Positions 17,702-25,263 of a stretch of 64,000 bases of DNA are shown here, in pieces. The stretch comes from Candidatus Zixiibacteriota bacterium (GTDB taxonomy: Bacteria; Zixibacteria; MSB-5A5; GN15; JAAZOE01): the NCBI GenBank assembly GCA_030668485.1, contig DAOUTW010000015.1, positions 1 to 64,000 of the forward strand, read 5' to 3'. The first letter of the stretch is position 1, and each line of letters opens with the position of its first letter. Position numbers and translations under genes: made by a program. The notes under the pieces are model-generated. The model saw only the letters and a program-made list of their open reading frames with translations, ran no database searches and was not told where the DNA came from.

Positions 17702-18025
17702 GTGCTGATATTGACAAGGAAGTTGGGGGAGTCGATTACCATCGGCGATGATATCAAGGTGACGGTGCTGGGTATATACGGCCGGCAGGTTAGACTTGGT
17801 ATTGAAGCCCCTCTGAAAGTTGTGGTTCACCGCGAGGAGATCTATGTCAAGATACAGAATGAAAACCAGAAAGCGGCGCGAACCATCAAGGAGGACCTGG
17901 TTAACGTGATGCAGGTGCTCAAGGATAAAATCAAGAAGGGCGAGAGCAAGGGGAAGAAGCCGATCCAGATAAAATATAAAAAGGATCACGACCAGGGACC
18001 GCACCATCGTGATCGCAGGGAGTAA
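17702..18025 (+). CDS. csrA: Carbon storage regulator CsrA with a long basic C-terminal tail
   Basis: CsrA is a dimeric RNA-binding protein that represses translation by binding ANGGA sites, in many bacteria including flagellin leaders. Residues 1-55 match the family well: [38 protein letters not shown] and [12 protein letters not shown], including the RNA-binding Arg and the VHREEI motif. The remaining ~50 residues are a Lys/Arg/His-rich extension not found in the usual 60-75-residue proteins. GTG at 17702 follows GGAGGG. Its location next to flgL and near fliW and fliC points to control of flagellin synthesis. Confidence 0.95.
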
Positions 18026-18027
18026 AG

Positions 18028-18204
18028 ATGTTTTTCGGCAAAAAAAAGAAAGAACGAAAAGATTATGAGGACCCGGCCACGAAGTACGGTCGGATGCTGA
18101 GGAACAAGAAAGGCAAATCGGGAGGGTATCGCGATAAGCCGTCGCTGCTGGCCAGGATTTTCGGAGCCGGTCATGACAGCGATTTTGTGTACCATGACGA
18201 TTAA
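18028..18204 (+). CDS. Unknown 58-residue basic protein between csrA and flgL
   Basis: A small frame with ATG at 18028 is preceded by AGGGAG (18018-18023) that overlaps the end of csrA; it ends 16 bases before flgL. The product starts MFFGKKKKERKDYEDP and ends in DSDFVYHDD: a very basic N-terminus, glycine and arginine in the middle, an acidic end. It has no membrane segment and is not recognised. Tight packing and a good ribosome site argue that it is real. It could be a lineage-specific CsrA or flagellar accessory peptide, which is speculation. Confidence 0.6.
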   Translation: MFFGKKKKERKDYEDPATKYGRMLRNKKGKSGGYRDKPSLLARIFGAGHDSDFVYHDD

Positions 18205-20168: not shown

Positions 20169-20648
20169 ATGAAAATTGTCACGTCACGATTCGGTGAACT
20201 GGAAGTCAGTGAGGACTTGATAATAAGGATGACCAAACCGATTTTGGGTTTCGAACAACATCGCGAATATGTCATCGTGGAAACTGAGGATTTTGATCCG
20301 TTCAAATGGATGCAGTCGGTCACCAATCCCGATTTGGCATTCGTGGTTGTCAACCCGCTGCTGTTTTTTCCGGATTATATGATTGAGGTCAATCCCAAGG
20401 AAATCGAGGAGCTGAAGGTAGACGATATCAATCATGTTGTCACTTATTCGGTGGTGACGATCCCCTCGGACTACACACAGATGACAGCCAATTTACAGGG
20501 ACCGATTTTGATCAATACCAAGACCAATTTGGCCAAACAGTTGGTCCTGGTCAATTCGCATCATGGTATCAGGCATCGACTTATTGATACTAATATCGCG
20601 AATGAGATTAAGGCGCAGCCGGTCGAAAAGGTTCCCGTTACGGCCTGA
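20169..20648 (+). CDS. fliW: Flagellar assembly factor FliW
   Basis: FliW binds either flagellin or CsrA and so releases CsrA from the flagellin message when free flagellin falls. The 159-residue protein has the family pattern: a short beta-rich start (KIVTSRFGELEVSEDLIIRM), then GFEQHREYVIVE, PFKWMQSVTNPDLAFVVVNP and the C-terminal NLQGPILINTKTNLAKQLVL. It lies 20 bases after flgL. With csrA at 17702 and fliC at 23095 all three players of the switch are within 6 kb. Confidence 0.95.
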   Translation: MKIVTSRFGELEVSEDLIIRMTKPILGFEQHREYVIVETEDFDPFKWMQSVTNPDLAFVVVNPLLFFPDYMIEVNPKEIEELKVDDINHVVTYSVVTIPSDYTQMTANLQGPILINTKTNLAKQLVLVNSHHGIRHRLIDTNIANEIKAQPVEKVPVTA

Positions 20649-20836: not shown

Positions 20837-22828
20837 ATGAAAACCATCAGCGGGAATAAGCAGGATAAGAAGCGGTCGAGCATCTCGGCTTGTATGATCG
20901 TCAAGAATGAAGAGACCTTTCTGCCGCGATGCCTGGCATCGATTCGCGACCTGGTCGATGAAATCATTCTGGTCGATACCGGTTCCGATGATCGGACGGT
21001 TGAAGTAGCGACCGAATACGGATGCCGAGTTTTTAATTTCTCCTGGACGGGAGATTTTTCGGCAGCTCGCAATGAATCTCTTCGTTATGCGGAAAGCGAT
21101 TGGATCCTGATCATTGATGCCGATGAAGAAATCCCGGCCGAAGAAATCGACTCCATTCGCGAGGCTGTCAATAATCCAGCGCATGAAATAATTTCGATAT
21201 CGGTATATAATAAATCTCTCGAGAGCGGCCAGGTATCATCGTTTTTGCCCTCGGTGCGATTGTTCCGGAGGCAGCTTGAGTTGAAGTATGATGGAATTGT
21301 ACATAACCGTTTGATGCTGCCGCGGGACAAACAAGTCATTCGCCGCGATATAAAGCTTTTTCATTACGGATATGATCTGTCGACGCAGGAGTTGGAGCAG
21401 AAGAAGAAACGCTCGATAGAACTACTCGAAAAACAATTGCGCGAAAATCCCGATGATGTTTTTGCCAACTTCAATATGGCCCAACTGCTGCGCGGTATGA
21501 ATGGTGTCTCAGACCCAGATACCTGCCGGCGGATCATCCAGCATGCCACGCAAGTGATAGATCATCCCGATTCGGAATCAACGGGATATGCCGGTTACCG
21601 CATCATGGCTCATATTCAAGCGGCGATTGCATATTCCGCGATTGGTCGATTCGAAGAGGCTGAAAGTTACTGCCTGGCGGCCCTGTCTGAACGACCCGAT
21701 TATGTCGATGCCGCAATCACTCTGGCCAATGTTTATCTTGCCACCGGAAAGATCGAACAAGCCCGAAAATATTACCGGCGATATCTGGATATGCTCGACA
21801 GCTACCGGCCGGAAGAGGAAACCTCGGATATTATTCTACATTATCTGGATACTCGTCAAGTTGCCTGGTACGGGCTGGCCACCATCGCCCGAATAAACAG
21901 GGAGACCGAACAGGCGCTGAAATATTACAATCGAATTATAAGCGCCGGACATCGATACCTCGATACCTATTATCAGGCGGGAATTATCTATCTGCAGCAA
22001 GGCGACCCGCGCCGCGCCCAGGATATCCTGGATCAGGAGTTGACCCATAACGGTGATTCCGTGGCCGCTCATCTGGCCATGGCGCAGGCGTTGTCGGGAC
22101 AAGCCAAGGGCGATTATGCTCTTCCGCATCTCGACTCGGCTCTTGCCATTGAACCTGGAAATGTGCCGGTTCGGTTATTTCGAGCCAGAATTCTGCTGGC
22201 AGCAGGATCGGGGGAGAAAAGTCTGGATGATGTTCGGAAAATCATGAAAGATGTTCCCGATAACGCCGGTGTACTTTTTGAATGTGGGAATATTCTGTTC
22301 GCGGCAGGTCGAATAAGAGAGGCTCAAGCCTGCTACCTGAAGGTTAAGGATTTACAGCCCGATCATTGCGAAGCGATGAACAATCTTGGAAACTGCTCTT
22401 TTCGTCTCGAAGAATATGACCAAGCGGTGGCAATATATGAGCAATTGATACAGGACTCATCCGAATTCCGGACCGCCTATAGAAATCTCGGAATGGCTTA
22501 TATTCGGCTGGAAAAAAATGAAAAAGCGTTGAATGTATTGGCCCAGTATGTCGATCATTCACCTGAGGACATAGAAGTTTTTCGTATCATCGGCGACTTG
22601 TTATCGAGTCTGGGGTACCACGACAAGGCGATCGGTTGTTACGAAAAGTACTTAAGGCATCACCCAGACGACAGCGCCTGTCTTCTGAACCTGGCTGAAA
22701 TTTATTTTCAGTTGGGGCATCGGGAGGCGGCTGAAGCGGGATATCGGCAGGTATTGGCCTCCGATCCGTCGTGTCGGCCGGCCCAAAAACGGCTGGAATC
22801 GATTTCGGCGACCGAAGCGACCTGTTAA
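20837..22828 (+). CDS. Family 2 glycosyltransferase with C-terminal TPR array
   Basis: The 663-residue protein has a GT2 domain at about 15-250: SACMIVKNEETFLPRCLASI, DEIILVDTGSDDRTVEVA, and the metal-binding DADEE motif. From about 190 onward it is a TPR solenoid with at least ten repeats (for example DYVDAAITLANVYLATGKIEQARKYY and AMNNLGNCSFRLEEYDQAV). This build resembles protein glycosyltransferases with TPRs such as those acting on flagellins. The location between fliW and fliC suggests flagellin O-glycosylation, which is inference; the sugar donor and target cannot be read from sequence. Confidence 0.85.
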   Translation: MKTISGNKQDKKRSSISACMIVKNEETFLPRCLASIRDLVDEIILVDTGSDDRTVEVATEYGCRVFNFSWTGDFSAARNESLRYAESDWILIIDADEEIPAEEIDSIREAVNNPAHEIISISVYNKSLESGQVSSFLPSVRLFRRQLELKYDGIVHNRLMLPRDKQVIRRDIKLFHYGYDLSTQELEQKKKRSIELLEKQLRENPDDVFANFNMAQLLRGMNGVSDPDTCRRIIQHATQVIDHPDSESTGYAGYRIMAHIQAAIAYSAIGRFEEAESYCLAALSERPDYVDAAITLANVYLATGKIEQARKYYRRYLDMLDSYRPEEETSDIILHYLDTRQVAWYGLATIARINRETEQALKYYNRIISAGHRYLDTYYQAGIIYLQQGDPRRAQDILDQELTHNGDSVAAHLAMAQALSGQAKGDYALPHLDSALAIEPGNVPVRLFRARILLAAGSGEKSLDDVRKIMKDVPDNAGVLFECGNILFAAGRIREAQACYLKVKDLQPDHCEAMNNLGNCSFRLEEYDQAVAIYEQLIQDSSEFRTAYRNLGMAYIRLEKNEKALNVLAQYVDHSPEDIEVFRIIGDLLSSLGYHDKAIGCYEKYLRHHPDDSACLLNLAEIYFQLGHREAAEAGYRQVLASDPSCRPAQKRLESISATEATC

Positions 22829-22877
22829 CCTGCATTCTTACAAGGGGTTAAAATGTGTCAGGGGGCACAAAAAAGGG

Positions 22878-22904
22878 TAAAGTCCCGCCTGGATATGCCG
22901 ATTT
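22878..22904 (+). promoter_or_regulatory. Sigma-28 promoter of fliC
   Basis: TAAA (22878-22881), exactly 15 bases, then GCCGATTT (22897-22904): a near-perfect flagellar sigma-28 promoter. The transcript would begin about 22912, giving a leader of roughly 180 bases before the fliC ATG, long for flagellin and containing the elements listed below. Confidence 0.9.
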
Positions 22905-23014
22905 ATTGAATTAGGAAAATAGCTGAATGCTAAAGGTGCCTAAATCTGTAATGTGGAAAGGAGTGGGCGAATAACATTGCAAACAAATTTTTTGTTTTCA
23001 TAGGAGTTACCGCC

Positions 23015-23047
23015 ATGGACAGGCAGCAAAAGGAAATCATTGAATGA
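23015..23047 (+). CDS. Ten-codon upstream ORF in the fliC leader
   Basis: ATG at 23015 has its own ribosome site TAGGAGTT (23001-23008) and reads MDRQQKEIIE before a TGA that ends one base before the leader hairpin at 23048. It ends 47 bases before fliC. It may be a leader peptide whose translation affects the hairpin, or chance; the good ribosome site favours translation. Confidence 0.4.
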   Translation: MDRQQKEIIE

Positions 23048-23087
23048 AATTGCGAGCAAGGATGTTTCGCAATTAGTTCAAGGAGGA
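23048..23087 (+). promoter_or_regulatory. CsrA-type target: GGA-loop hairpin plus GGA Shine-Dalgarno in the fliC leader
   Basis: AATTGCGA (23048-23055) pairs perfectly with TCGCAATT (23067-23074); the 11-base loop GCAAGGATGTT contains the AGGA core bound by CsrA. Six bases later the ribosome site AAGGAGGA (23080-23087) provides further GGA motifs right before the ATG at 23095. The Bacillus hag leader has the same arrangement: one hairpin site upstream and one over the ribosome site. Confidence 0.7.
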
Positions 23088-23094
23088 ATTTTAG

Positions 23095-25263
23095 ATGTCT
23101 TTACGTATTAACAATAACATCGCTGCCATTAATGCTCATCGTAACCTGACAATGACTACTCGTGAGCTTTCCGGCTCGATGGAAAAGCTGTCATCCGGTT
23201 ACCGGATTAACCGCGCTGCCGACGATCCGGCAGGTCTGGTTATTTCCGAACAGTTCCGGGCGCAGATCGCCGGACTGGGACAGGCGATTGAGAACTCGGA
23301 AGGTTCCATCAACATGATTCAGACTGCTGAAGGAGCCCTGAACGAGATCAACAATCTGCTCATCTCGATGCGCGAGCTGGCCATTCATGCCGCCAACGAA
23401 GGTTTCAATGATGCCGATCAGTTGGCTGCCGATCAGGCGGAAATCGCCAATGCGATTGCCACCATCGATCGTATCGCTCAAAACACGCAGTTCGGTACCA
23501 AGAAACTTCTCGACGGCACCAAGGATAATGTAGCCACCATCACGAGCTCAAACTCGGCTGATGTTACCATTCTCAGCAGTGGTTTGTCCACCGGTACGCA
23601 CTCGATTCAGGCGACCAAAACCGCCGATTCGACCGCGACCCTGAACACCACTTCTCTGGGTGTCGCTCTGGACGGTACCAACGGTACCCCGACCAATCTG
23701 ACCGAAGGAATCCATAATATCGACGTTCTCCAGGCTTCGGCCGGTGCGGAGAAGGTATCCGGTTCCATCGATATCAACGACGCTTTTGGTAACGGTTTTG
23801 AAGTAGCAGCCGTTGCCGGATCCGCCCTCCATACCTCCGGTGCCGCTCTGATAGCTGCCGGGGCTGCAACCGAGGGTGATTATTCGGTGGTTTTGAATTA
23901 CCAGGAGAATGGCGAAGCCGTGTCTGGTAATCAGACTCTTACGGCCAGCATCGTTGATGGCGATTCTGCTGCCGTGCAGGTTGGCAAGTGGAATACCGCT
24001 CTGGGCAACAACACCGCCCTGGCCGGCAAAGTTGAAGCTGCCCTCGGCGGCGGCGGGGAACTTGTCTTCCAGTCGACCAACGAAGGTACCCAGTATTCAC
24101 TGAAAATGTCCAGCTTTTCCGGTGTCGATACCGCCACTCTGTTTGGCGATTTCGTCGTTGGCAGTGATCGTGGAATTTCAGAAAATGTTTTGAATTTCAC
24201 CGTCAATACGGCCAAGAATACGGCATTTACTGCGGATGTTACCGTTCTTGCCGGAACTTATACATCGACGTCGGCGCTGGTCTCAGAAGTTAACGTCGGT
24301 TTGACAGGCGCTTTTGGACTTATTGGCGCGACTACTCAGCAGGATATCACCGCTGATGTTTCCGGTACAGACCAGGTTAAATTCTGGACAGCCGATGAAG
24401 GCTCTGAATACACCATCAAGATGAACTCGTCCGGCGCGGATACGGCCCAACTCCAGAAGGCGTTCGATATGACCGCCGATACGGTTGCCGTTGCTGGTAC
24501 CGATGCAATTGTCAGTTTTGACAATTACTCAACCTCAGTCACCGCCGTTAATTATGACTCAACCGGAAGCGTTACCCTTTATAACGGGGCTGACGGTGAG
24601 TCCGGTCGCGGTTCCATTGATATGACAGTGGCCACGGCCGCCAATGGTATCAACCTCGGCAACCTGTTGCTCGACGTGACGGCTGCCAAGTTTGATATCC
24701 GTCTCGATGCCGGTCCGGGAACTTCCGTGACCGCTGGCAAGGATGCCTTTATTTATAACGCCGATCGTACCGAATCGCTGAAGATCAATATTGATCTGAC
24801 CTCCACCGGCGGTACGGAGACGATCCAGAACACTGATTCTTCACTGGTCTTCCAGATCGGCCCGAATGTCGGTCAGACGGCCAATATCGGTATCCGGAAC
24901 ATGGCTGCCTCGTCCCTCGGTCGCGGTATTGCCGGTAATATGTTCCAGAACCTGTCCCAAATCGATGTGACCACGGTCCAGGGTGCTCAGGATGCCCAAT
25001 CGGTGGTCGATTCGGTTATTAACGATGTTTCGACCGTCCGCGGCACGCTCGGTAGTTTCCAGAAGAACTCTCTGGAATCGAACCTGCGCAACCTGCGGAT
25101 TGCCGAGCAGAACTTGACTGCGGCCGAATCGATGATTCGTGACACCGACATGGCTCAAGAGATGTCGAACTTTGTCAAGCAGCAGATTCTGCTTCAGGCC
25201 GGTACGGCCATGCTGGCTCAGGCCAACCAGGTTCCTCAGGTTGTTCTGTCCCTCTTTGGCTAA
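23095..25263 (+). CDS. fliC: Flagellin FliC
   Basis: This is the filament subunit. The 722-residue protein has conserved ends that form the D0/D1 core: N-terminal SLRINNNIAAINAHRNL and LSSGYRINRAADDPAGL..SE, C-terminal LRIAEQNLTAAESMIRDTDMAQEM and the end VVLSLFG. The central ~450 residues (about 160-610) are a Thr/Ala/Gly/Asp-rich surface region with no cysteine, roughly 220 residues longer than in the enteric flagellin of about 500 residues. Only one flagellin gene is in this window. It is expressed from the sigma-28 site, with CsrA/FliW control likely; fliS and fliD follow. Confidence 0.96.
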   Translation: MSLRINNNIAAINAHRNLTMTTRELSGSMEKLSSGYRINRAADDPAGLVISEQFRAQIAGLGQAIENSEGSINMIQTAEGALNEINNLLISMRELAIHAANEGFNDADQLAADQAEIANAIATIDRIAQNTQFGTKKLLDGTKDNVATITSSNSADVTILSSGLSTGTHSIQATKTADSTATLNTTSLGVALDGTNGTPTNLTEGIHNIDVLQASAGAEKVSGSIDINDAFGNGFEVAAVAGSALHTSGAALIAAGAATEGDYSVVLNYQENGEAVSGNQTLTASIVDGDSAAVQVGKWNTALGNNTALAGKVEAALGGGGELVFQSTNEGTQYSLKMSSFSGVDTATLFGDFVVGSDRGISENVLNFTVNTAKNTAFTADVTVLAGTYTSTSALVSEVNVGLTGAFGLIGATTQQDITADVSGTDQVKFWTADEGSEYTIKMNSSGADTAQLQKAFDMTADTVAVAGTDAIVSFDNYSTSVTAVNYDSTGSVTLYNGADGESGRGSIDMTVATAANGINLGNLLLDVTAAKFDIRLDAGPGTSVTAGKDAFIYNADRTESLKINIDLTSTGGTETIQNTDSSLVFQIGPNVGQTANIGIRNMAASSLGRGIAGNMFQNLSQIDVTTVQGAQDAQSVVDSVINDVSTVRGTLGSFQKNSLESNLRNLRIAEQNLTAAESMIRDTDMAQEMSNFVKQQILLQAGTAMLAQANQVPQVVLSLFG

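Follow-up and report, generated by a model that had tools for sequence, protein, structure and literature searches.

A candidate CsrA-FliW switch in the fliC leader of Zixibacteria, with a conserved and covarying GGA hairpin

The flagellar island and the fliC leader

The window, i.e. the whole 64-kb stretch of DNA that was analysed (taken from a 78-kb contig that belongs to a 4.5-Mb genome), carries a flagellar island encoding FlgA, FlgH (L ring), FlgI (P ring), FlgN and FlgK, as well as CsrA, a FlgL-type protein (with flagellin domains), FliW, a glycosyltransferase-TPR protein, FliC, FlaG, FliD and FliS. The closest flagellins among named relatives come nearly all from Candidatus Zixiibacteriota (FCB group). 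Together with the presence of FlgI and FlgH, these Zixibacteria relatives bear out the first-pass annotation of this DNA, which had presumed a diderm host of the FCB group equipped with flagellar rings. It had also placed csrA and fliW upstream of fliC in the same island, and Pfam searches found both genes there, on the strand of fliC. The genes and leader elements are as follows (window positions).

17702-18025, + strand: csrA, 107 amino acids, with a C-terminal extension (Pfam CsrA, 3.5e-24)
20169-20648, + strand: fliW, 159 amino acids (Pfam FliW, 2.8e-39)
22878-22904, + strand: sigma-28-type promoter TAAA-N15-GCCGATTT, read from the sequence
22911-23094, + strand: fliC mRNA leader, about 185 bases, with nine GGA triplets (4.2 expected from mononucleotide shuffling)
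22955-22964, + strand: distal GGAAAGGAGT element, a possible additional CsrA site (the weakest claim of this list)
23012-23024, + strand: P2 mini-hairpin GCC-AUGGACA-GGC, with its GGA at 23017-23019; P2-type elements are conserved across leaders
23048-23074, + strand: P1 hairpin, stem AATTGCGA/TCGCAATT, with its loop GGA at 23060-23062; candidate CsrA site 1
23080-23087, + strand: ribosome-binding site AAGGAGGA, overlapped by candidate CsrA site 2
23095-25263, + strand: fliC, major flagellin, 722 amino acids, with its ATG start codon at 23095 (Pfam Flagellin_N, 5e-37; Flagellin_C, 7e-22)

The csrA gene encodes the only CsrA of this genome. The protein possesses the RNA-binding residues L4, R6 and R44, along with I51 and N55 at the FliW contact. 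CsrA requires N55 to bind FliW in both C. jejuni and B. subtilis, and V or I occupies position 51 (PMC7829508). The best PDB relatives of FliW (5dmb chain A) and of CsrA (aligned over residues 2-75, into the C-terminal extension) together make up the Geobacillus FliW-CsrA complex 5dmb. Among the 98 genomes of the class, CsrA occurs in 95 and FliW in 91, and csrA, fliW and fliC lie in the same order on one contig in about 46 genomes.

The promoter, the GGA-loop hairpin and a ribosome site within ten bases of it had all been annotated ahead of fliC, and each one lies where it had been placed. The inferred transcription start is near 22911. The P1 arms (23048-23055 and 23067-23074) enclose the loop GCAAGGATGTT, which is closed further by inner pairs, while outer UUGAAU/GUUCAA pairs can lengthen the stem; the ribosome site starts five bases after this stem. 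The loop context GCAAGGAUGU resembles the CsrA SELEX consensus RUACARGGAUGU (PMC7652899). A 61-base segment containing P1 folds at -14.7 kcal/mol (z = -2.3 relative to dinucleotide shuffles). For the 204-base leader in full, the predicted stability is unremarkable (z = -0.8), so that the folding of one sequence, taken by itself, provides weak evidence. Rfam returned no covariance-model match up to E = 1 for window positions 22500-23400. As to the distal element, a possible additional CsrA site judging from its sequence, an GAAAGGAGG-like motif stands at this position in five of six same-family leaders and is degenerate (GAAAGGGGGAG) in L004.

Three other features of this region and of the source's family were recorded. 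Between fliW and fliC, a family 2 glycosyltransferase with TPR repeats (20837-22828, + strand) possibly plays a role in flagellin glycosylation. Between csrA and flgL, a 58-amino-acid reading frame (18028-18204, + strand; MFFGKKKKERKDYEDPATKYGRM...GHDSDFVYHDD) is kept within the source's family at 44-65% identity, and its Pfam search gave no match. The family also has a second, short flagellin (about 260-300 amino acids; loci L009-L014). A promoter of the sigma-54 type (GGC-N8-TTGCA pattern) precedes the matched start of its gene by about 42-51 bases, and its leader is devoid of the CsrA-type hairpin. C. jejuni splits its flagellins between sigma-54 and sigma-28 control, an arrangement that this short flagellin and fliC resemble.

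Conservation and covariation of the P1 hairpin

The fliC starts were gathered from the source's family, from 98 genomes of its class (flagellin match in 76; 71 leaders in all) and from a named genome collection. The 88 Zixibacteria leaders thus obtained were reduced to 80 by collapsing those at least 80% identical. CCGA-core promoters occur in 58 of the 80, and the median leader spans about 197 bases.

An alignment of fliC leaders for the conservation of both GGA sites had been suggested by the first-pass annotation, and its outcome speaks for the two of them. A ribosome site is present in every leader examined, and its GGAGG is invariant across 72 aligned leaders. Across this leader set, the P1 GGA hairpin exceeds chance in the following respects. 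First, 75 of the 80 leaders have a GGA positioned 14-25 bases ahead of the ribosome site, as compared to 26% of dinucleotide shuffles. Second, the GGA is inside a hairpin loop in 70 of the 80 (17% in shuffles). Third, a loop-GGA hairpin of -3 kcal/mol or better is found in 63 of the 80 (9% in shuffles).

The stem differs in sequence between lineages: it reads GCGAGCAAGGAUGUUUCGC here, GGGUAAGGAUACCC in the sister families, and GUCGACAAGGACGCUCGAC, GACAAAGGAUGUC or UCGGAUACGGAAUAUCCGA elsewhere. Exchanging the 3' arm between leaders weakened the mean pairing from -6.8 to -3.1 kcal/mol, and none of the 200 swaps was as good (all 73 leaders). The same was observed within family f2 (0 of 300 swaps) and with one leader per family (11 families; 0 of 500). 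The swaps were not significant within f9, f17 and f7, which have only four leaders each. The percent paired and the covariation score of P1 surpassed those of all 500 shuffles; in the pair-count test, shifting the register by one column gave an equal score, as the stem register differs between lineages.

These data bear on the explanation that the GGA triplets are mere ribosome sites or chance purine-rich sequence. It is true that a ribosome site must contain GGA and that purine-rich leaders raise the counts (4.4 GGA expected per leader). However, the observed mean is 7.75 GGA per leader, the P1 and P2 positions are fixed as compared to shuffles, and the compensatory stem changes revealed by the arm swaps already contradict this explanation, to which we give hardly any credence.

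The loop GGA and the ribosome-site GGA are separated by 22 bases here, and by 18-25 bases in 73 leaders. A CsrA dimer can bridge two sites over a distance of 10 to 63 bases, and does so best above 18 (PMC7652899); the spacing of the two candidate sites is in this range.

A covariance model (R1) was built from the hairpin and the ribosome site. In the 4.5-Mb genome of origin, it scored the fliC leader, which is part of its training set, at 37.4 bits and the next match at 20.0 bits. The other genes of this genome were rejected as bearers of the same leader (20 bits at most), the inspected ones matching mostly through the ribosome site, and four non-fliC matches inspected in relatives were likewise unconvincing. 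The phylum-wide R1 search is not counted as independent evidence, because most of the new genomes that were checked duplicated training leaders.

The upstream element P2 and the leaders without a loop GGA

A second conserved GGA element, P2, absent from the first-pass annotation, is usually located 73-106 bases ahead of the start codon. Most lineages carry it as ACAUNGGANGU, f5 as GACCAUGGAGGUC, the source's family as GCCAUGGANNGGC and f17 as AAGGAGGUG. Of the 80 leaders, 54 have the exact type, which did not turn up once in 2400 shuffles; a score of at least 4, which admits weaker matches, is reached by 70 of the 80 leaders, as compared to 7% of shuffles. We claim P2 as a conserved sequence, not as a conserved structure, because its hairpin is often weak and the arm swaps within families provided no covariation support for it. 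P2 probably loads a further CsrA dimer, or substitutes for P1 when the latter is lost.

In the source genome, P2 coincides with the ATG (23015) of a short upstream frame (MDRQQKEIIE), which could be taken for a leader-peptide or translational-coupling device, the more so as ATGGA is present in six of six same-family leaders, where a GGA precedes it at a distance fitting a ribosome site. However, this ATG is usually missing outside the source's family, where the element is mostly ACAUNGGANGU and the GGA stays; furthermore, both the length and the stop of the frame vary, that of L004 continuing into fliC. Because the ATG is confined to the source's family, the leader peptide was rejected as a conserved feature, and such a device is extremely unlikely to account for the element.

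About seven of the 80 leaders have no GGA at the P1 position, and their genomes, where searched, retain csrA and fliW. This GGA is absent from L050, L062 (GGG), L067, L069, L083 (GGU) and L107, and L117 has a longer spacing. It had been stated beforehand that relatives lacking the loop GGA yet retaining csrA and fliW would speak against CsrA control; such losses do occur in this minority, whereas most leaders retain the GGA. Since all seven leaders keep an upstream GGA element (located further out in L069, at -132, beyond the scanned range), we read the loss as site turnover, not as lost regulation.

Two of these leaders, L067 and L069, come from one genus. They retain the proximal hairpin, with a loop lacking GGA (GACUAGCGAGUC), and they have a perfect GAACAUGGAUGUUC hairpin upstream, a possible case of site turnover.

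The persistence of the L067 and L069 hairpin without GGA would also fit a 5' stability or ribosome-access element acting without CsrA in a highly expressed mRNA; flagellin expression is very high, and a stem just ahead of the ribosome site could shield the transcript or leave the site accessible. Yet, conservation resides in the loop GGA, which usually follows AA (53 of 73 leaders), while the stem sequence drifts, and nearly all genomes with the element carry both CsrA and FliW. We thus consider an element of this kind improbable, and CsrA binding the better reading of the hairpin.

A proposed CsrA-FliW switch and its relation to known systems

Because the hairpin and the ribosome site resemble CsrA docking sites, this lineage very probably uses a FliW-CsrA brake. 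The first-pass annotation had likened the leader to that of Bacillus hag. At the sequence level, the comparison is supported by the covarying GGA hairpin, the ribosome-site GGA at bridging distance, the two protein partners and their key residues, and we are confident, short of certainty, that the fliC leader operates as a translational switch repressed by CsrA and relieved by FliW.

We propose that transcription from the sigma-28 promoter would generate the leader of about 185 bases, on which a CsrA dimer would place one pocket on the P1-loop GGA and the other on the ribosome-site GGA 22 bases downstream, thereby blocking the ribosome. The export of flagellin through the finished hook-basal body would free FliW, which would then bind CsrA at its C-terminal helix, by way of N55, thereby lifting the block. 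Conversely, backed-up flagellin would capture FliW, and repression would return. In this scheme, we infer the CsrA binding, the repression, the FliW antagonism and the flagellin-FliW binding from the leader and the proteins encoded beside it.

The hag leader, with CsrA and FliW, is reportedly the subject of work by Yakhnin (2007) and Mukherjee (2011). In B. subtilis, it has two CsrA sites, one of them over the ribosome site, and FliW is the protein antagonist (PMC7652899). The Zixibacteria leader is alike in belonging to a flagellin mRNA with two (here candidate) CsrA sites, one over the ribosome site, and in having FliW as presumed antagonist. It differs in its diderm FCB host, in its extra conserved upstream GGA element and in that CsrA binding is predicted here from sequence.

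C. jejuni flaA, with a GGA-GGA spacing of 21 bases (22 here), is a diderm precedent for the FliW-CsrA control of flagellin (PMC4894983). The two systems share a diderm host, GGA stem-loops with compensatory changes, a sigma-28 promoter and FliW as (here putative) antagonist. In contrast to the Zixibacteria fliC leader of about 185 bases, the flaA leader comprises 45 bases with two stem-loops, and there a loop also holds the GGA of the ribosome site. Such control being already known in a diderm, the novelty here lies in the phylum and in P2, the conserved element further upstream, and our literature search found no paper that mentions Zixibacteria together with CsrA.

The multi-site CsrA leaders of gammaproteobacteria (e.g., pgaA and glgC) have several GGA sites, as does fliC here; there, CsrA is antagonised by the CsrB/C RNAs, not by FliW.

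The comparative RNA evidence extends the FliW-CsrA flagellin checkpoint, beyond gene presence, to an uncultured FCB phylum, and it speaks for an ancient and broad origin of this checkpoint. In addition, the leaders provide about 80 natural variants of putative CsrA sites, usable for reading sequence rules.

A wider proposal is tentative and, in our judgment, rather unlikely as a whole. The leader might be a multi-dimer CsrA platform, with P2 as important as the hairpin and the fliC mRNA titrating CsrA (as the flaA mRNA of C. jejuni does), and in flagellum-less Zixibacteria FliW-CsrA might answer to a non-flagellin partner. At least five near-complete genomes (G008, G014, G015, G025 and G031) retain CsrA and FliW, and profile searches of these drafts gave no flagellin or FlhA match. 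Genomes of this kind offer a direct route to asking what FliW senses without flagellin.

The gene neighborhoods were also recorded. In G030 (family f16; L213, 2795-5377), FlhA, FlgN, a FlgM-like gene, csrA and fliW are present, and flagellin was not detected. csrA adjoins fliW in L214 (G014), L215 (G015), L216 (G070), L217 (G008), L219 (G031) and L220 (G066), i.e. in genomes, some of them near-complete, in which FlhA and flagellin were not detected. A FlgN-like gene lies beside csrA in L214 and L217, and N55 is retained in the CsrA proteins extracted from flagellum-less Zixibacteria genomes.
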